From assembly GCA_947258655.1 (NCBI GenBank), contig CAMYJD010000026.1, forward strand, positions 1-41,603: a stretch of 41,603 bases of DNA, written 5' to 3'. The stretch comes from an uncultured Gammaproteobacteria bacterium. GTDB taxonomy: Bacteria > Pseudomonadota > Gammaproteobacteria > JAADHQ01. The notes below the pieces were generated by a model. It worked only from the letters and a program-made list of their open reading frames with translations, was not told the DNA's origin and searched no databases. Below are positions 26,386 through 33,981 of this stretch, piece after piece (position 1 is the first letter of the stretch; every line of letters starts with the position of its first letter). Position numbers and translations under genes: made by a program.

Positions 26386-28131
26386 TTAATGATATTGCGC
26401 ATTGATGACCTGTATATGTTTAAGTGCATCTTCCGCATGTTCGCACTGAAGTACTTCATGACTGGCGGGCACAAGCTTTTTGATCAACGAGTGATTGATG
26501 ATATTTTTTACTTCGAGGATGGCATTAGGTTGCATGCTGAATTCGCGCAGTCCCAGCCCGAGTAACAGGCGGGTATAGTCTGGATCGCCAGCCATTTCAC
26601 CGCACATGGCGACGGGTATTCCAGCATTTTTCCCTGCCTCGATGATCTGTTTGATCAGTATCAATACCGAAGGGTGGCTAGGTTTATAGAGATAGTTAAC
26701 GTCTTCATCAATACGGTCAATGGCCAGTGTATACTGGATCAGGTCATTGGTACCGATCGACAGAAAATCAAGATGACGTGCAAACAGGTGTGATGATATT
26801 GCTGCGGCTGGTACTTCGATCATACCTCCAACAGGCATATTCTGGTCGAATTCAATATTCTGACTGCTCAACTCGGCCTTGATATTATCGAGAATATTTA
26901 TGACCTGGAATATCTCTTGCGTGTTCGACAGCATCGGAATCATCATGCGTACAGGGCCCGTTGCCGAAGCACGCAGGATAGCACGTAATTGTGGTATGAA
27001 CAGCCCTGGGTCCTTGAGGCAGAGTCTGATCGCACGTAGGCCCAGAGCCGGATTGGTAGGGCATTCTGCCTGCTGTAGGTTCTGTAGGGGTTTGTCTGCG
27101 CCCAGGTCCAGTGTTCGTATTGTTACCGGCTTGCCTTTCATTGCAGATACTATATCCTGATAGGCGTTAAACTGCTCTTCTTCATCAGGCAAATCATCCC
27201 TGTTCATAAACAGATACTCTGAACGAAATAAACCGATACCATCTACTTTGGTATCATGCAAGGCCTGCATATCTTCAGGTAGTTCGGCATTGGCATGCAG
27301 ATGAACAGCAATATTGTCCATACTTAACGCAGGTTTGTTTTTGAGTTTGTTTAGTGAAGAATAATACAACCTGAAGGCGCGTTGTTTTTCGCTGTAGTAT
27401 TCCTTGATGACATCGGAAGTTTTCGCCAGAACTATGCCCTGATCGCCATCAATAATAATTTCTTCATCATTCTGGAAATAACGTTTCGCATGGTGTATGC
27501 CAACGATAGCGGGGAGTTTAAGGCTACGCGCGAGTATCGCTGTATGCGAGAGCGGCCCCCCGGACTCGGTAACAAAAGCGATCATGCCCTGATGTTGTAG
27601 TAACACAATATCGGCCGGGGTGAGATCATCAGCGATGATTATTTTGTTTTGCAATAACTGCACACCTTCATGCAAGGGCAGTTCTTCATCCATATTTGTA
27701 AGAATACGCAGAATGCGGTTGACTACATGGATGACATCATCACGTCGCGTCTTCAGATAGGCATCATCCATTTCATCGAAAACGCTGACCAGCATATCCA
27801 GTTGTAGTTTTAGTGCCCATTCTGCACTGCATAACTGTGACCTGATGATCTGGATTGGTGCTTCGGATAATGCTGAGTCATTCAACATCAATAAATGGGT
27901 GTCGATAAAGCCGCTGATATCGGTTGGTGTTGATCCAGGTATTTTTTTGCGGATTTGCTGTAACTGGGTGTTGGCAACATCGATGGCGCGACGCAGGCGA
28001 TCTATTTCATCATCCAGGCGATCGCGAGGGATGCAGGTCTCTGCGACCTCGGGTTGACCTCTCTCAAGCTTATGGGCGCGCCCTATTGCGATGCCACGAG
28101 ATACAGCAATACCTTTTTTGGCGAGCGTCAT
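26386..28131 (-). CDS. ptsI: PTS enzyme I
   Basis: Phosphoenolpyruvate-protein phosphotransferase, 581 residues, the usual size of canonical enzyme I (~575). It autophosphorylates from PEP and passes phosphate to HPr. The active histidine is H196 in GGPLSHTAILAR, and the PEP-domain cysteine is C510 in AMCGEMAGDP; GLFRSEYLFMNR (~317-328) is a further PEP-binding signature. Unlike E. coli PtsP, no N-terminal GAF domain is present, so nitrogen sensing by that route is not expected. It follows HPr by 178 bases, the longest gap of the PTS block, and its ribosome site GGGAAG (28137-28142) can pair with an upstream arm. mgtE is downstream. Confidence 0.95.
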   Translation of the reverse strand: MTLAKKGIAVSRGIAIGRAHKLERGQPEVAETCIPRDRLDDEIDRLRRAIDVANTQLQQIRKKIPGSTPTDISGFIDTHLLMLNDSALSEAPIQIIRSQLCSAEWALKLQLDMLVSVFDEMDDAYLKTRRDDVIHVVNRILRILTNMDEELPLHEGVQLLQNKIIIADDLTPADIVLLQHQGMIAFVTESGGPLSHTAILARSLKLPAIVGIHHAKRYFQNDEEIIIDGDQGIVLAKTSDVIKEYYSEKQRAFRLYYSSLNKLKNKPALSMDNIAVHLHANAELPEDMQALHDTKVDGIGLFRSEYLFMNRDDLPDEEEQFNAYQDIVSAMKGKPVTIRTLDLGADKPLQNLQQAECPTNPALGLRAIRLCLKDPGLFIPQLRAILRASATGPVRMMIPMLSNTQEIFQVINILDNIKAELSSQNIEFDQNMPVGGMIEVPAAAISSHLFARHLDFLSIGTNDLIQYTLAIDRIDEDVNYLYKPSHPSVLILIKQIIEAGKNAGIPVAMCGEMAGDPDYTRLLLGLGLREFSMQPNAILEVKNIINHSLIKKLVPASHEVLQCEHAEDALKHIQVINAQYH

Positions 28132-28259
28132 GAAAGCTTCCCATTGCCGGCTGGCACGCGTATATAGTGGATGCCTGTATGTCTATGTTTAGTCGGCAAA
28201 TCGTGACCGGGAAGCTGAAACACAGAATTTACTAATAGTTGTATCACTGTGGTGTGCAA
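28128..28259 (-). CDS. possible small coupled reading frame in the ptsI leader
   Basis: A TTG at 28257-28259 opens a 43-codon frame that ends in TGA at 28128-28130, overlapping the ptsI ATG as ATGA. A strong GGAGGAG (28269-28275) lies nine bases upstream of the TTG. The predicted peptide (MHTTVIQLLV...) has no recognised domain or signal. The same Shine-Dalgarno could instead serve an ATG at 28265-28267 that opens only seven codons. Its existence as a gene is speculative; the overlap and ribosome site are the only support. Confidence 0.2.
   Translation of the reverse strand: MHTTVIQLLVNSVFQLPGHDLPTKHRHTGIHYIRVPAGNGKLS
28135..28216 (-). promoter_or_regulatory. inverted repeat that can mask the ptsI ribosome site
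   Basis: On the minus strand AGCTTCCC (28209-28216) is perfectly complementary to GGGAAGCT (28135-28142), 66 bases apart. The second arm contains the GGGAAG that precedes the ptsI ATG by five bases, so the fold would hide it. Confidence 0.35.
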
Positions 28260-28267
28260 ATTGTCAT
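28238..28267 (-). promoter_or_regulatory. candidate sigma-70 promoter before ptsI
   Basis: On the minus strand ATGACA (28262-28267, 5 of 6 matches to TTGACA) and TACAAC (28238-28243, 4 of 6) are separated by 18 bases. It lies in the HPr-EI gap and could give EI and mgtE an extra promoter. It overlaps the Shine-Dalgarno-like leader sequence, so the two interpretations compete. Confidence 0.25.
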
Positions 28268-28309
28268 ACTCCTCCGTTGTTACGCCGAGATCGATTTTCT
28301 GCTGTATCT

Positions 28310-28579
28310 TTATTCATCTTCTCCGAAGCGGTTCTGGATTAATATGTCGAGTTGCTCTGATGCTTGCTGCTCGTCAGCGCCAGATGCGCTTAATAATAGC
28401 TCTGTGCCCTTGGATGCGGCCAGCATCATGACGCCCATGATGCTTTTACCGTTAACCTTCTGCGGGCCTTTGTGTAAATAAATGTCGCTGGAAAATGTTG
28501 AGGCCAGGGTGACAAATTTTGCAGCTGCGCGCGCGTGCAATCCCAGTTTGTTAATAATTTGTACTTGTTTTTCTATCAT
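28310..28579 (-). CDS. ptsH: phosphocarrier protein HPr
   Basis: An 89-residue phosphocarrier. The EI-phosphorylated histidine is H15 in KLGLHARAAAKFV, and the regulatory serine S46 is in NGKSIMGVMML, both at canonical positions when ATG 28579 is used; the TTG at 28591 would extend back into the EIIA gene. Presence of S46 fits the HPr kinase encoded four genes upstream. The start follows the EIIA stop by two bases, so translation is probably coupled. Without EIIB/EIIC its phosphate likely goes to the two EIIA proteins of this cluster for regulation. Confidence 0.95.
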   Translation of the reverse strand: MIEKQVQIINKLGLHARAAAKFVTLASTFSSDIYLHKGPQKVNGKSIMGVMMLAASKGTELLLSASGADEQQASEQLDILIQNRFGEDE

Positions 28580-28581
28580 AT

Positions 28582-28968
28582 CTATTTGCAAATCATAATA
28601 CCGTCGTGGCCCCCTGAGCTTGCTTTTTCGGCAAGTTGCTCAAGGTTAAGGCGGGGATAATTTAATACACGGATCAGCATTGGCAGATTGATGCCTGAAA
28701 TAACGATAACTGAATTACTGTTGGCCAGGCGAGTGGCGATATTACTCGGAGTGGAACCGTACATATCAGTCAGTACAAGTACACCATCGCCATTATCGAG
28801 CTCGTTTATTCGTGATTTAGCTTCGCTAATGGCTGTTTCCAGTTCGCAATCACTGTAAATGGCGAAATCCGCCGCCTGTAACGGGCAGGTTCCCAGCATA
28901 ATCCTGGCTGTTTCCAGCAACTGCTGGCCAATATTATTGTGGGTGATGATAAATATGCCTACGCTCAT
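28582..28968 (-). CDS. PTS mannose-family EIIA component
   Basis: A 128-residue EIIA of the mannose (EIIA-Man) fold. The phosphorylatable histidine is H10 in IFIITHNNIG, and VLVLTDMYGSTPSNIA (about 63-78) is the conserved dimer/active-site segment. No mannose EIIB, EIIC or EIID is nearby, so a regulatory role is inferred, as for the similar orphan EIIA of Xanthomonas and betaproteobacteria. The start overlaps the rapZ stop by four bases, and HPr follows after two bases. Confidence 0.92.
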   Translation of the reverse strand: MSVGIFIITHNNIGQQLLETARIMLGTCPLQAADFAIYSDCELETAISEAKSRINELDNGDGVLVLTDMYGSTPSNIATRLANSNSVIVISGINLPMLIRVLNYPRLNLEQLAEKASSGGHDGIMICK

Positions 28969-29822
28969 GATAATTCCCGGTGCCTGATCATTATATTCTT
29001 GCGTAAGGGTTTAAAATAGGCTGCTATAGACTCTGCCATGTACACAGAGCGATGCTGGCCGCCCGTACAGCCAATGGCAACAGTCATGTAATTGCGGTTC
29101 TCCTGTTCAAACCTCGGTATCCAGGTATCCAGGAAGTCGATTATGTTTTTTTTCATTTCGATGACCCAGGGCTGTTCCTCGAGGTATTCAATAACCTTAC
29201 TGTCCTTGCCTGTTAGTGGCCGTAATGAAGTTTCCCAGTGAGGATTGGGAAGACAACGCATGTCAAAAATAAAGTCGGAGTCGCTGGGTGCTCCATGTTT
29301 ATAGCCAAAGGATTGAAAAAGCAGTGACATGCAGTCGGCAGGTTCATTAATGACTCTTTTGCGTACCAGTTCACGCAGTTGATAGATATTGGTGTGGGTG
29401 CTGTCTATATGCAGATCTGCCAGAGCGGCAATAGGGTAAAGCAGCTTGCGCTCAAGTTTTATCGCATCGGGGAGTGGTCGTTCTTCATTTGTCAGTGGGT
29501 GTTTTCGCCGGGTTTCACTGAAGCGCTTTAACAAGGTTGCCTCGTCGGCTTCCAGATAGATGATTTCCATATCAAGACTGGACGAAGTAAGGTCTTTCAG
29601 TAATTCCGGAAAACGCTCAAGGTCCTGGTGAATATTTCTTGCGTCGATCCCAACTGCTACCATACTGTTGTCTTTGCCCCAATTGCTGATCAGTTGTTCG
29701 ATCAGGGATGGCAGCATACCAATAGGCATGTTGTCGATGCAATAATAATCAAGGTCTTCGAGTGTATTGAGGGCAATACTTTTACCAGAACCGGACAGAC
29801 CGCTTATGATGATCAGTTTCAT
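28965..29822 (-). CDS. rapZ: RNase adapter protein RapZ
   Basis: A 285-residue P-loop protein (E. coli 284). Walker A is GLSGSGKS at residues 8-15; the C-terminal domain carries GCTGGQHRSVYMAE (about 249-262), the metabolite-binding and RNA-adapter part. In E. coli RapZ binds glucosamine-6-phosphate and guides RNase E to the GlmZ small RNA. Whether GlmZ-type RNAs exist here cannot be told from the window. The ATG overlaps the hprK stop by four bases. Confidence 0.95.
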   Translation of the reverse strand: MKLIIISGLSGSGKSIALNTLEDLDYYCIDNMPIGMLPSLIEQLISNWGKDNSMVAVGIDARNIHQDLERFPELLKDLTSSSLDMEIIYLEADEATLLKRFSETRRKHPLTNEERPLPDAIKLERKLLYPIAALADLHIDSTHTNIYQLRELVRKRVINEPADCMSLLFQSFGYKHGAPSDSDFIFDMRCLPNPHWETSLRPLTGKDSKVIEYLEEQPWVIEMKKNIIDFLDTWIPRFEQENRNYMTVAIGCTGGQHRSVYMAESIAAYFKPLRKNIMIRHRELS

Positions 29823-30769
29823 TGTATGCTCTTTTGTACAATACTATTCTGGCGCTGGATAAAATCTTCGGCAGCATCATAGCCCTTTTGTATGAGGATA
29901 TGATTACGCACAGCAGTTTCAACCGCAATCGCCAGATTGCGACCAGGTGCGACCGGTAATGTGACTTCCGGGACATTTATACCCAGTATCTTGCGGTTGC
30001 GTTTTGATCCGCGCAGGCGGTCAACGCGGTGAAGCTGTTCATCAGTCATATTTTCGAGTGCGATAACGAGACGCAGGTATTTACCGGTTTTGATGGCGCT
30101 ATCACCGAATAAGGCGCGTATATTCAGAATCCCCAGACCGCGTACTTCAAGGAATTCCCGTAACAGGGCAGGGCAGGTGCCGTTAATGATATCCGGTGCT
30201 ATTTTCGAGAATTCCGGAGCATCATCAGCAATCAGCCGATGTCCGCGACTGATCAGATCCAGGGCCAGTTCACTTTTGCCGATACCGCTTTCGCCAGTCA
30301 GCAATACCCCGCTACCCATGACCTCCATGAATACACCATGGATGATCATCGAATCGGCAAGTACGGAACCGAGCAGGTACTGAAGGTGGTTGAGGACTTC
30401 CTGGCTGCTGACCAGGCTGGTAAGTAACGGGATATTATGGCGGTCCGATAGGCGCAGAAAATCGTTGGGTATCGGTAAACCACCAGCTATCAGGACCATT
30501 GCTGTCTGTTTTTCGGAGAACAGCTGGGTGACGGCATCATGGCGGGAATTCTTGCCCTGTTTTTCCAGATACTCCAGCTCTGTCTTGCCGAGTATCTGGA
30601 TCCTGTTGGGGTGAATGATATTTAAATGACCTACCAGGGCAATATTCTTGTTGTCTGCGGTTTTCGATGATTTTATAACCCGTTGCCCACCCTGTTCGCC
30701 AGCCTTCCATTCCAGTTCTATGCGTTTTTCTAACTGCGTTACCAGGTCATGGACTGCGATATCATTCAT
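29819..30769 (-). CDS. hprK: HPr kinase/phosphorylase
   Basis: A 316-residue bifunctional enzyme that phosphorylates HPr on Ser46 with ATP or pyrophosphate and reverses it with phosphate. Walker A GESGIGKS lies around residues 158-165, and the family signature LEVRGLGILNIRALFG follows in the C-terminal catalytic domain (about 208-223); an N-terminal DRTGG-like domain covers ~1-130. E. coli lacks this gene, so its insertion between ptsN and rapZ marks the older proteobacterial arrangement. It overlaps both neighbours by four bases (ATGA). Confidence 0.95.
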   Translation of the reverse strand: MNDIAVHDLVTQLEKRIELEWKAGEQGGQRVIKSSKTADNKNIALVGHLNIIHPNRIQILGKTELEYLEKQGKNSRHDAVTQLFSEKQTAMVLIAGGLPIPNDFLRLSDRHNIPLLTSLVSSQEVLNHLQYLLGSVLADSMIIHGVFMEVMGSGVLLTGESGIGKSELALDLISRGHRLIADDAPEFSKIAPDIINGTCPALLREFLEVRGLGILNIRALFGDSAIKTGKYLRLVIALENMTDEQLHRVDRLRGSKRNRKILGINVPEVTLPVAPGRNLAIAVETAVRNHILIQKGYDAAEDFIQRQNSIVQKSIQ

Positions 30770-31233
30770 GCGGCTGAGCTGGTGTGCTGATTACTCAGGA
30801 GCTCATATAGTTGCTCCCTGGTCTCACTCTTGCGGAGTGCTTCGCAAAACGCCTGATCGCTGAATATCCTCGCCAATTGGGCGAGGATGTCCAGGTGTTC
30901 ATCAGTAAAGTGGTCCGGCACCAATAGACTGAAAAGCAGATCTGTCGGCTGGTTGTCTATTGCATCAAAATCGACGCCTTGCTCCAGCTTGATAAAAGCC
31001 CCGATGGCCTGTTCCCTGCCTGGCAGGCGGGCATGGGGTAGGGCAACACCATGCCCGAGCCCGGTGCTTCCGAGTCTTTCACGGCTGATCAGGCTCTTGA
31101 ATATTTCATCCTGACTGATGTCAGGAGTATCAGTAACCAGCAGTGCGCTTAAGGCCTCCAGGACCTTCTTCTTGCTCCTGGATTCATTGTCACAACTGAT
31201 TCTTTCGGGAACGATAAGGTCTGATATTTTCAT
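30766..31233 (-). CDS. ptsN: nitrogen-regulatory EIIA (PtsN)
   Basis: A 155-residue EIIA-Ntr (fructose-type fold). The phospho-accepting histidine is H67 in GHGVALPHARL (60-70), with the second conserved histidine H61. It relays phosphorylation state to targets such as K+ uptake and sensor kinases in other bacteria. It lies between hpf and hprK, and its stop overlaps the hprK start by four bases. The second EIIA of the cluster means HPr has two possible acceptors. Confidence 0.95.
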   Translation of the reverse strand: MKISDLIVPERISCDNESRSKKKVLEALSALLVTDTPDISQDEIFKSLISRERLGSTGLGHGVALPHARLPGREQAIGAFIKLEQGVDFDAIDNQPTDLLFSLLVPDHFTDEHLDILAQLARIFSDQAFCEALRKSETREQLYELLSNQHTSSAA

Positions 31234-31254
31234 GAGTATCGGCTTGAAGTTTGA

Positions 31255-31551
31255 CTATCTTCGATGGTGATTGGTTATTTTTTCCTTGTGCTTCTTGACC
31301 TGTCTGTCGAGCTTATCAATGAGTCCGTCGATGGCAGCATACATGTCTTCCTGGGTATCATCCGCGTACAGATTATTACCGCTCAGATGTACGGTCGCCT
31401 CTGCTTTTTGTCTGAGTTTTTCAACACTTAAAATTACATGTACATCGACTACCTGGTCAAAATGCCGTTCGAGTTTTTCCAGCTTGGATTCAACATAGTC
31501 ACGCAGGGAATCTGTCAGATCTACGTGATGGCCGGTAAGGTTGATTTGCAT
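31255..31551 (-). CDS. hpf: ribosome hibernation promoting factor, short form
   Basis: A 98-residue member of the HPF/YfiA family (E. coli HPF 95). It binds the 30S decoding region and promotes 100S dimers in stationary phase. The N-terminal MQINLTGHHVDLTDSLRDYV and central LYADDTQEDMYAAIDGLIDKL are typical, ending in a basic KKHKEK tail. It lacks the long C-terminal dimerisation domain. It sits between rpoN and ptsN, as in E. coli, 21-22 bases from each. Confidence 0.95.
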   Translation of the reverse strand: MQINLTGHHVDLTDSLRDYVESKLEKLERHFDQVVDVHVILSVEKLRQKAEATVHLSGNNLYADDTQEDMYAAIDGLIDKLDRQVKKHKEKITNHHRR

Positions 31552-31573
31552 TTTAAACTCCTTGCTTAGGTTA

Positions 31574-33058
31574 TTATGCCAGTCGCTTACGTTCGTTGGA
31601 GGAAGGTAGCAACATGGCCTCTCGGTATTTGGTAACGGTTCGGCGCGCCACTTTTATGCCCTGTTTCATCAGCAGGTCCGCGAGCTTGCTGTCACTCAGG
31701 GGTTTATCCGGACTTTCGGCGGCAATCAGTTTCTTGATAATCGCGCGTATGGCCGTGGCCGAGCATACGCCGCCTTCAGTAGTATTGACGTGACTTGAGA
31801 AGAAATACTTGAACTCGAATATTCCATTTGGTGTATGCATATATTTCTGTGTAGTTACACGGGAAATGGTTGATTCATGCATATCGACAGCTTCTGCGAT
31901 ATCCCTCAGTACCAGAGGGCGCATCGCTTCTTCACCATAATCGAGAAAGCCGCGTTGACGTTCAACAATACAGCGCGCCACCTTGAGCAGGGTTTCATTA
32001 CGGCTTTGCAGGCTCTTCAGAAACCAACGTGCTTCCTGGAGGTGATTTCTCAGGGAGTTGGTGTCATCGCTGCTGTCGCTTCGGCGTATCAGCCCGGCAT
32101 ATTGCTGGTTGATTCGTATTTTGGGCATCGTGTCCGGGTTAAGCTCCACTGTCCATACATCATTCTTTTTTTTCACCAGTACATCAGGAACGATGTATTC
32201 GGGGGTGGCCGGTGTAATACTGGAGCCCGGTTTTGGGTCAAGGGACTGGATAAGCTGAATGGCGTCTGTCAGTACGTTCTGGCTTATATGCATCTGCCTC
32301 ATTATGCGTTTGAAATCACGTGAACCTAATGCATCAAGATGGTTTTGTACCAAACCGATGGTAGTCTTAAGATGCGGGGTGTCGTCAGGCAGATGATGCA
32401 GTTGCACCAACAGGCATTCCCTCAGGTCACGTGAGCCAACACCGAGTGGGTCAAATTGCTGAATGCGGTGCAGCACCGCCTCGACCTCATCATAATCGAT
32501 CGTGTCCTCATCGACGGTTGTATTCTGGATTATTCCCTGGTGGATATCTTCCAGTGGAATATGCAGATAGCCATCTTCATTGATTGCGTCGATTATCGAC
32601 ATGGCAATGGCGCGGTCTGTATCGGAGAATGGTGTCAGCTGCATTTGCCAGGTAAGGTGATCATGAAGACTCTCACCACTTGAGTTGACGCCTTCCCATT
32701 GTTCCTGTTGTTCATCACTGGCCGGTTGGGAGTAGGAAGTTGAACCGTCATATACATCATCCCAGTTGCTGTCCGTAGGTAATTCATCCGGGATTTCGTT
32801 CTTGCTGGCCAGATCGGATGTTTCCGTGCTTGACTGGGACTCACTTGCTTCCTGGGCAGGCTCGTTTGTTTCGGCATCCTTGGCATTGCTGTTTTCATTT
32901 TCTTCCTCGGCCACCTCCAGCATGAAATTGGATTCGAGGACATTCTGAATTTCCATTTGCAGATCGATAGTAGACAGTTGTAACAGTTTTATGGCCTGTT
33001 GCAGCTGTGGGGTCATATGCAAACGCTGCTCATGACCAAGATATAGTGATTGTTTCAT
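31574..33058 (-). CDS. rpoN: RNA polymerase sigma-54 factor
   Basis: The alternative sigma factor that recognises -24/-12 promoters and needs AAA+ activators; 494 residues from ATG 33058 (a TTG at 33064 is two codons further). Region I is glutamine- and leucine-rich (LTQ-like [16 protein letters not shown], about 15-30), followed by an acidic region II (~50-110), the core-binding domain, the HTH and the RpoN box [12 protein letters not shown] near the C-terminus. It is preceded by a hairpin that may terminate lptB transcription and by a sigma-54-like element, suggesting its own promoter. Confidence 0.96.
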
Positions 33059-33110: not shown

Positions 33111-33127
33111 TGCATTTATTATGCCAG
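33111..33127 (-). promoter_or_regulatory. sigma-54-like -24/-12 element before rpoN
   Basis: On the minus strand the sequence reads CTGGCATAATAAATGCA: a YTGGCA -24 box, GG and GC separated by exactly ten bases, and TGCA at -12. Mismatches to the consensus are at the two bases after TGGCA and at the first T of TTGC. Predicted transcription would begin about 42 bases before the rpoN ATG. A CATAAT inside the same stretch could also act as a sigma-70 -10 box. Confidence 0.42.
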
Positions 33128-33149
33128 TACAGTTAGATTGCACATTTAT

Positions 33150-33186
33150 TTCAATAAAAATACCTGATTATTCAGTACAGGTATTT
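33150..33186 (-). terminator. terminator-like hairpin between lptB and rpoN
   Basis: On the minus strand AAATACCTG (33178-33186) and CAGGTATTT (33158-33166) form a perfect 9-bp stem around an 11-base loop, and the second arm continues into a TTTTTATT run. It is 70 bases after the lptB stop and about 100 bases before the rpoN start. It would end or reduce read-through from the LPS genes. Confidence 0.5.
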
Positions 33187-33255: not shown

Positions 33256-33981
33256 TTACAATGAAAAATCATGACCCAGGTATACCTCTCTAACCTGTTG
33301 ATTTTCCAGTATTGATTCTGGTTCGCCTTCGGCAATGACCTGTCCTTCACTTAATATATAGGCAGATGTGCATATTCCTAGTGTCTCGCGCACATTATGG
33401 TCGGTAATCAGCACACCGATACCTCGATCACGCAGGTGTTTGATGATCTGCTGAATATCGACAACCGATATCGGATCAACGCCGGCAAAGGGTTCATCGA
33501 GGAGAATAAAAGCGGGATTCATGGCCAGGGCGCGTGCAATTTCTGCGCGTCGGCGTTCTCCGCCTGATAGACTGATGCCCGTGTTATCCCTGATGTGACC
33601 TATATGCAGATCGAGGAGCAGCTTTTCCAGTTCCGACTCACGTTCCTGGGGGGTGAGATCCTCACGTAATTGCAGGATAGCCATAATATTGTCAGCGACG
33701 TTTAATTTGCGGAATATCGATGCCTCCTGGGGCAGGTATCCTATACCGTTGCGTGCCCTGGCATGCATGGGCAAACTGGCGATGTCCTGATCATCGATAA
33801 ATATCTGCCCCTGGTCAGTCGGTATCAGGCCGACGATCATATAGAAAGTAGTTGTTTTACCGGCACCATTTGGCCCCAACAGCCCAACGACTTCTCCGGT
33901 ATTGATCGACATGCTGACATTGTCAACAATGGTTCTGTTCTTATAGCGTTTAACCAGATTGGTTGTGCGTAACTGGGTCAT
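33256..33981 (-). CDS. lptB: LPS export ABC transporter ATP-binding protein LptB
   Basis: The cytosolic ATPase of the LptB2FGC transporter that extracts LPS from the inner membrane; 241 residues, the same as E. coli. Walker A is GPNGAGKTT (about 36-44), the signature is LSGGERRR (about 138-145) and Walker [15 protein letters not shown] follows. LptF and LptG are not in the window. Its ATG shares one base with the lptA stop (TAATG), so the two are translationally linked. Confidence 0.96.

Follow-up and report, generated by a model that had tools for sequence, protein, structure and literature searches.

The sigma-54 RNA polymerase binds promoters at their −24 and −12 elements and forms a closed complex there, which opens only through the action of an activator. 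At the small RNA gene glmY, the sigma-54 and sigma-70 promoters are reportedly 'perfectly overlapping', as the title of Reichenbach 2009 is said to put it. Control of the sigma-54 gene, rpoN, by its own product is not new, and one of the species concerned, R. etli, belongs to another class, the alphaproteobacteria. According to the articles cited here, ChIP-seq in P. aeruginosa places sigma-54 upstream of its own gene, with Kohler 1994 cited for rpoN self-regulation in P. putida (PMC8855297); rpoN is enriched among the genes for which sigma-54 promoters are predicted, in several classes of which the gammaproteobacteria are one (PMC12316311); and negative autoregulation of R. etli rpoN1 is mentioned with a citation (PMC3916325). 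The excerpts of PMC2725144 and PMC3804575 contain nothing on rpoN's own promoter.

Competition between the two polymerases has been described at other genes. Both holoenzymes compete at glmY and glmZ, and glmZ is transcribed more strongly when rpoN is mutated (PMC3844500); overlapping sigma-54 and sigma-70 promoters at glmY/glmZ are also described in PMC4591121. In E. coli, sigma-54 polymerase represses overlapping sigma-70 promoters, four of which were tested in vitro, and the −12 C was present at every sigma-54-repressed site (PMC4551910). Neisseria pilE has been discussed in similar terms (PMC6755734).

Here we compare these systems with an element in front of rpoN in an uncultured gammaproteobacterium, located in a window of 41,603 nucleotides (the whole stretch of DNA analysed). 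In Pseudomonas, sigma-54 binds upstream of its own gene and is said to regulate its own expression (PMC8855297, excerpt), as is proposed here, a likeness that covers self-regulation alone, the published geometry being outside the comparison. The prediction of PMC12316311 shares rpoN autoregulation with our case, and its excerpt gives no sigma-70 overlap, geometry or sign; R. etli rpoN1 shares the negative autoregulation that we propose below, the mechanism not being described in the excerpt of PMC3916325. At glmY/glmZ, as proposed here for rpoN, one stretch of DNA serves both holoenzymes in competition; however, the products there are small RNAs, whose activator is known, whereas ours is a sigma factor gene in a putative feedback loop for which no strict NtrC-type activator site was found. 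The E. coli argT, chaC, mdfA and patA promoters (Class I/II; PMC4551910, excerpt) have a sigma-54 site inside the sigma-70 footprint, an arrangement that is probable for rpoN, and keep the −12 C, as rpoN does. Repression by occupancy, described for them, is only proposed for rpoN, and they are separate single genes, whereas the geometry described here recurs before one gene in many genera. Since self-control of rpoN has already been reported or predicted, what is new is the fixed composite of elements and its confinement to rpoN; no description of the composite at rpoN was found in the open-licence literature searched.

Results

A predicted sigma-54 box upstream of rpoN

The rpoN gene (31574–33058, minus strand, ATG at 33058) encodes 494 amino acids with the AID, CBD and DBD domains of sigma-54 (Pfam); no second Sigma54_DBD match was obtained anywhere in the genome (3.48 Mb). 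The genes around it, named from Pfam family and position, follow one another on the minus strand as lptA-like, lptB-like (an ABC ATPase gene, 33256–33981), a 197-base gap, rpoN, and then hpf-, ptsN-, hprK- and rapZ-like genes; the region after rpoN (26386–31551, minus strand) continues with EIIA-man, HPr and PTS enzyme I-like genes and thus holds a PTS/Hpr-kinase set. Of the 197 rpoN upstream regions compared below, 176 also gave a match to the C-terminal part of lptB.

Within the gap, the −24/−12 box CTGGCATAATAAATGCA lies at 33127–33111 on the minus strand, with GG at 33125–33124 and GC at 33113–33112. An earlier note on this DNA had reported a GG-N10-GC in front of rpoN with this sequence, strand and position, and about 54 bases from the ATG; the box is indeed upstream of the ATG, at a separation of 52 bases. 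Compared with TGGCACG-N4-TTGCW, the sigma-54 consensus used here, it agrees at 9 of the 12 specified positions, and the three differences are those already counted. The pattern TGGCAYNNNNNNTGCW, with up to three mismatches, had 995 matches in the window, where shuffled sequence averaged 1029, and a loose match of this kind, taken alone, is weak evidence; the exact form of the box is expected about 0.0003 times per 130 bases, by a rough estimate. Mapped E. coli sigma-54 sites with ATGCA or ATGCT at −12 exist (hyfA, hycA; PMC4591121, excerpt), and the A before TGC in CTGGCATAATAAATGCA is therefore no objection.

The hairpin that had been described upstream of the box was recovered between lptB and rpoN (33158–33186, minus strand) as a 9-bp stem, 33186–33178 paired with 33166–33158, followed by a T-rich run, when 33192–33158 was folded alone (−8.7 kcal/mol, z −3.4); in a longer folded stretch the best structure was a different one. 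The hairpin is absent from the list of a terminator scanner, whose limit its 11-base loop exceeds, and is a possible lptB terminator. In the unfolded sequences of three genus relatives it was not evident by eye. We also saw by eye that the 13-mer ACTGGCATAATAA is present twice on the minus strand, at 33116–33128 in the promoter box and at 31571–31583 at the rpoN stop codon; the latter copy is without GC at −12, and the repeat there is probably due to chance.

Loss of the GG or GC in close relatives, which was to count against the site, was looked for in four genus members. GG-N10-GC was kept in all four, and their lptB–rpoN gap was poorly conserved outside the box-bearing block and a stretch beside the ATG. 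Because the box is conserved in relatives, we do not attribute it to chance.

We then collected 212 rpoN loci, 198 of them distinct, and after dropping one with a short upstream sequence (L154) obtained 197 upstream regions. These consist of the 80 loci nearest by RpoN together with loci or regions taken from among the best-scoring listed matches of further searches, so that the fractions given here are not class-wide rates. A strict box (TGGCAY-N6-TGCW, at most 120 sense bases from rpoN) occurred in 32 of the 197 regions, compared with 2 on the antisense strand, 0 with the sequence reversed and 0 at 300–420 bases upstream; 200 dinucleotide shuffles gave a mean of 0.065 and a maximum of 1. When the spacer of the strict box was varied from 0 to 14, the canonical one, with GG-N10-GC, accounted for the 32 matches and each of the 14 other spacers for 0–1, and this enrichment of the N10 spacing only is a mark that points to sigma-54. 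The distance from the strict box to the rpoN ATG varied from 17 to 95 bases, which argues that the element is kept for itself rather than as a side effect of its nearness to the start codon. A graded sigma-54 score based on the above consensus reached at least 20 of 23 on the sense strand in 52 of the 197 regions and far upstream in 2; on the antisense strand of the rpoN upstream regions the number was 9, against these 2. On an RpoN tree, one clade of 39 members had the strict box in 29; the tree was built quickly with FastTree, its deep branches are weakly supported, and it does not separate gain from loss.

Self-control of rpoN through the predicted sigma-54 site is therefore probable, and the conservation of that site supports it well. 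The suggestion of the earlier note that rpoN may control itself is thus supported, through the box kept in 4/4 genus members and the strict box in 32/197 regions.

A −10-like element at a fixed distance from the box

The hexamer TAAAAT (33109–33104, minus strand), which matches TATAAT at five of six bases, begins two bases after the −12 GC and resembles a sigma-70 −10 element. An overlap with a sigma-70 promoter had been suggested before on the basis of a CATAAT inside the box; the overlap itself looks real, but the conserved −10 is the TAAAAT just downstream. CATAAT was rejected as the conserved −10: it is lost within the same genus in L004 and L033 (TGGCACAGATAATGCA, with CACAGA at that place), and follows TGG in just 6 of the 38 composites described below. 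A promoter proposed by a scanner, CTGGCA-17-TATATT, was likewise discarded, its TATATT not being kept in three genus relatives.

The combination recurred in other rpoN regions. A loose expression, [TCA]GG-N10-GC-N2-TANNNT within 130 bases, was found in 41 of the 197 regions, and in none of them on the antisense strand or far upstream. Moving TANNNT to other offsets between 0 and 12 left 0–6 regions, and keeping it at +2 while changing the GG–GC spacer to other values from 4 to 16 left 2–11, compared with 41 for a spacer of ten. With a moderately strict box, the composite was present in 38/197 regions within 150 bases and in 37/197 within 130 bases; for the latter distance, shuffles gave a mean of 0.145 and a maximum of 3. 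One of these composites (L234) has the lowest sigma-54 score, 13.5 of 23, and is probably due to chance. The −10 hexamer agreed with TATAAT at 4–5 of six bases in 37/38 composites, a figure to which TANNNT contributes as part of the selection. Among the columns left unselected, A was found at hexamer position 4 in 32/38 and at position 5 in 26/38, and the two bases between GC and TANNNT were R in 37/38 and then S in 34/38; in 24 mutually diverse rows the corresponding counts were 18, 15, 23 and 21. The columns that the expression left free thus also seem to resemble a −10 element. On the tree, the 38 composites among 197 tips correspond to at least 18 changes. The composite was absent from 159 of the 197 sampled rpoN regions, and 13 of the 32 strict boxes were without TANNNT at +2.

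At the −35 place, 17 bases before TAAAAT, stands CTGTAC (33127–33132, minus strand), which agrees with TTGACA at 2/6 bases; a canonical −35 at 16–18 bases was not found. Across the composites, the hexamer at this place agreed with TTGACA at 0–3 of six bases. A hexamer CTGyAm was preferred directly before TGG, and CTG stood there in 15/38 composites compared with 0–2 of 38 at other offsets from −25 to −2; in these offset counts and hexamer matches, as in the lptB distances given below, one row (L003) enters with a spurious second match. The sigma-54 elements and the −10 are thus present at fixed spacing, the −35 is weak, and the sigma-54 sequence looks as if it fills the 17-base spacer of an apparent housekeeping promoter with a weak −35. 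From the usual element-to-start distances, transcription on the minus strand is predicted to start at about 33100 for sigma-54 and about 33097 for sigma-70. A sigma-70 overlap at the rpoN box is likely.

Distribution of the composite element

We scanned 274 gammaproteobacterial genomes for a strict composite pattern (TG-N3-TGGCAY-N5-WTGCRS-TANNNT) and obtained 15 matches in 15 genomes of 10 genera, all directly upstream of rpoN with 35–117 bases between; the reversed pattern had 0 matches in the same 274 genomes. RpoN was matched in 223 of the 274 genomes of a class sample of this size. In a sample of 398 genomes from the phylum, the strict composite was found at our own site and once in genome G610 (L258), the reversed control also giving one match, and the other gammaproteobacteria sampled there were without it. 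The G610 match has no rpoN beside it, the rpoN of that genome being on another contig, and was taken as chance. Except for this one match in another genome, the strict composite was confined to rpoN in the genomes scanned.

In our own genome, the pattern TGGCAYN5WTGCW had 40 matches including the rpoN site, compared with 11 for the reversed control, which indicates that sigma-54-like sites are enriched. Of the 39 other matches, loci were retrieved for 30, and 29 distinct sites among these, all but L131, were examined. The idea that the composite is a general feature of sigma-54 promoters was rejected, as TANNNT stood at the rpoN offset in 0/29 of these sites and at another offset within 18 bases in 9/29. 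Ten of the 29 lie inside stop-free runs of at least 150 amino acids and may not be promoters. A Pfam test of 10 downstream frames, chosen from 14, identified two as fliL and fliK, while three were without a Pfam match; the sigma-54-like sites of these two (L112 at C1:181025 and L113 at C1:182656) are 39 bases before the ATG. fliL and fliK are flagellar genes and typical sigma-54 targets.

Other geometries were also observed. In five strict boxes (L035, L041, L046, L142 and L147), TANNNT is shifted downstream by six bases, so that it starts 7 bases after the 16-base box and not 1, a displacement of about half a helical turn; four of the five have GCT instead of GCA. In the family f160 (L259, L260, L261, L263 and L264), an identical AGGCATATAATTTGCT is present in five genomes at 63–77 bases before rpoN. 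It keeps GG-N10-GC and contains TATAAT between the GG and the GC, instead of TANNNT after the GC. This arrangement is a possible second sigma-54/sigma-70 overlap at rpoN, and the notion of a −10 within the spacer, put forward earlier for our own box, fits it better. Considering f160 together with the shifted variants, different geometries of the overlap may have arisen. From other families, we searched 28 genomes, one of which was without an RpoN match, and obtained 29 regions from 27 genomes (2 of them already among the 197; the C-terminal fragment L288 was left out). The +2 composite was found in 0/29 of these regions, and a sigma-54 score of at least 21 was reached in 4/29, without the composite.

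Discussion

We propose that a sigma-54 holoenzyme site and a housekeeping promoter interlock in front of rpoN and that sigma-54 polymerase lacking its activator limits rpoN transcription, a reading that we consider rather probable. The architecture and its conservation were observed in the genomes; from them we infer sigma-54 binding, competition and the negative sign. Sigma-70 polymerase would make the rpoN mRNA from the interlocked site. When sigma-54 is plentiful, its polymerase would settle on GG-N10-GC as a closed complex, which would not open without an enhancer-binding protein; this complex would cover the −10 element and the start and exclude sigma-70 polymerase, and rpoN would be damped by excess sigma-54 in a homeostatic negative autoregulation. 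Under some conditions, an activator may turn the same site into a start. More tentatively, CTGyAm-TGGCAyR-N4-wTGCRS-TANAAT could be a dedicated cis element, used for rpoN only in many gammaproteobacterial lineages, that acts as a built-in homeostat of the sigma-54 level.

Alternatively, the site might be a true sigma-54-dependent promoter, at which an enhancer-binding protein brings about positive autoregulation of rpoN and TANNNT is basal or irrelevant. Such a promoter would agree with the quality of the box as a sigma-54 site, with the 13 of 32 strict boxes that are without TANNNT at +2, and with the high-scoring boxes that occur without the composite in 4/29 regions of other families. Sigma54_activat had 18 matches in our own genome, 13 of them below 1e-40; the same search also matched in all 14 control genomes, and weak matches therefore say little. 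The enrichment of rpoN among predicted sigma-54 promoters (PMC12316311, excerpt) points in the same direction. However, the strict NtrC-type motif GCACY-N5/6-RGTGC was found in no composite region and in only one of the 197 regions (L022, not a composite), and a looser NtrC-like pair, GCAC-N5..8-GTGC, in 1/38 composites, which speaks against an NtrC site as the activator site. Moreover, the box starts 11–31 bases after the lptB stop in 22/47 loci (the L003 row again included), so that an enhancer placed outside lptB would have hardly any space. The fixed TANNNT would also be unexplained, being absent at that offset from the 29 other sites of our own genome. The lack of a strict NtrC site in the composites, together with the little room, therefore favours a negative loop over activation, and we regard positive autoregulation as unlikely.

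A dual promoter of the glmY kind, from which both holoenzymes transcribe rpoN, sigma-70 giving a base level and sigma-54 responding to a signal, appears less probable still. The predicted starts would be at most about 3 bases apart, and glmY, with its reportedly 'perfectly overlapping' promoters, offers a precedent. The two holoenzymes do compete at glmY/glmZ (PMC3844500, excerpt), but the search for NtrC-type motifs identified no enhancer site at rpoN. It is very improbable that the element belongs to another regulator and merely resembles a sigma-54 box: TGGCA...TGCA is partly symmetric and the element as a whole exceeds a plain sigma-54 box in specificity, yet only N10 is enriched, the variable bases are mainly those where the sigma-54 consensus permits variation, and the element stands before the sigma-54 gene itself.

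To our knowledge, how the amount of sigma-54 is held steady is poorly described outside a few model species. The interlocked element proposed here gives a testable loop: if its sign is negative, changing the GG/GC with TAAAAT intact would make rpoN rise. If the proposal is true, lineages in which sigma-54 limits itself could be read from sequence, and rpoN would be a gene-specific case of sigma-54 acting as a repressor by occupancy.
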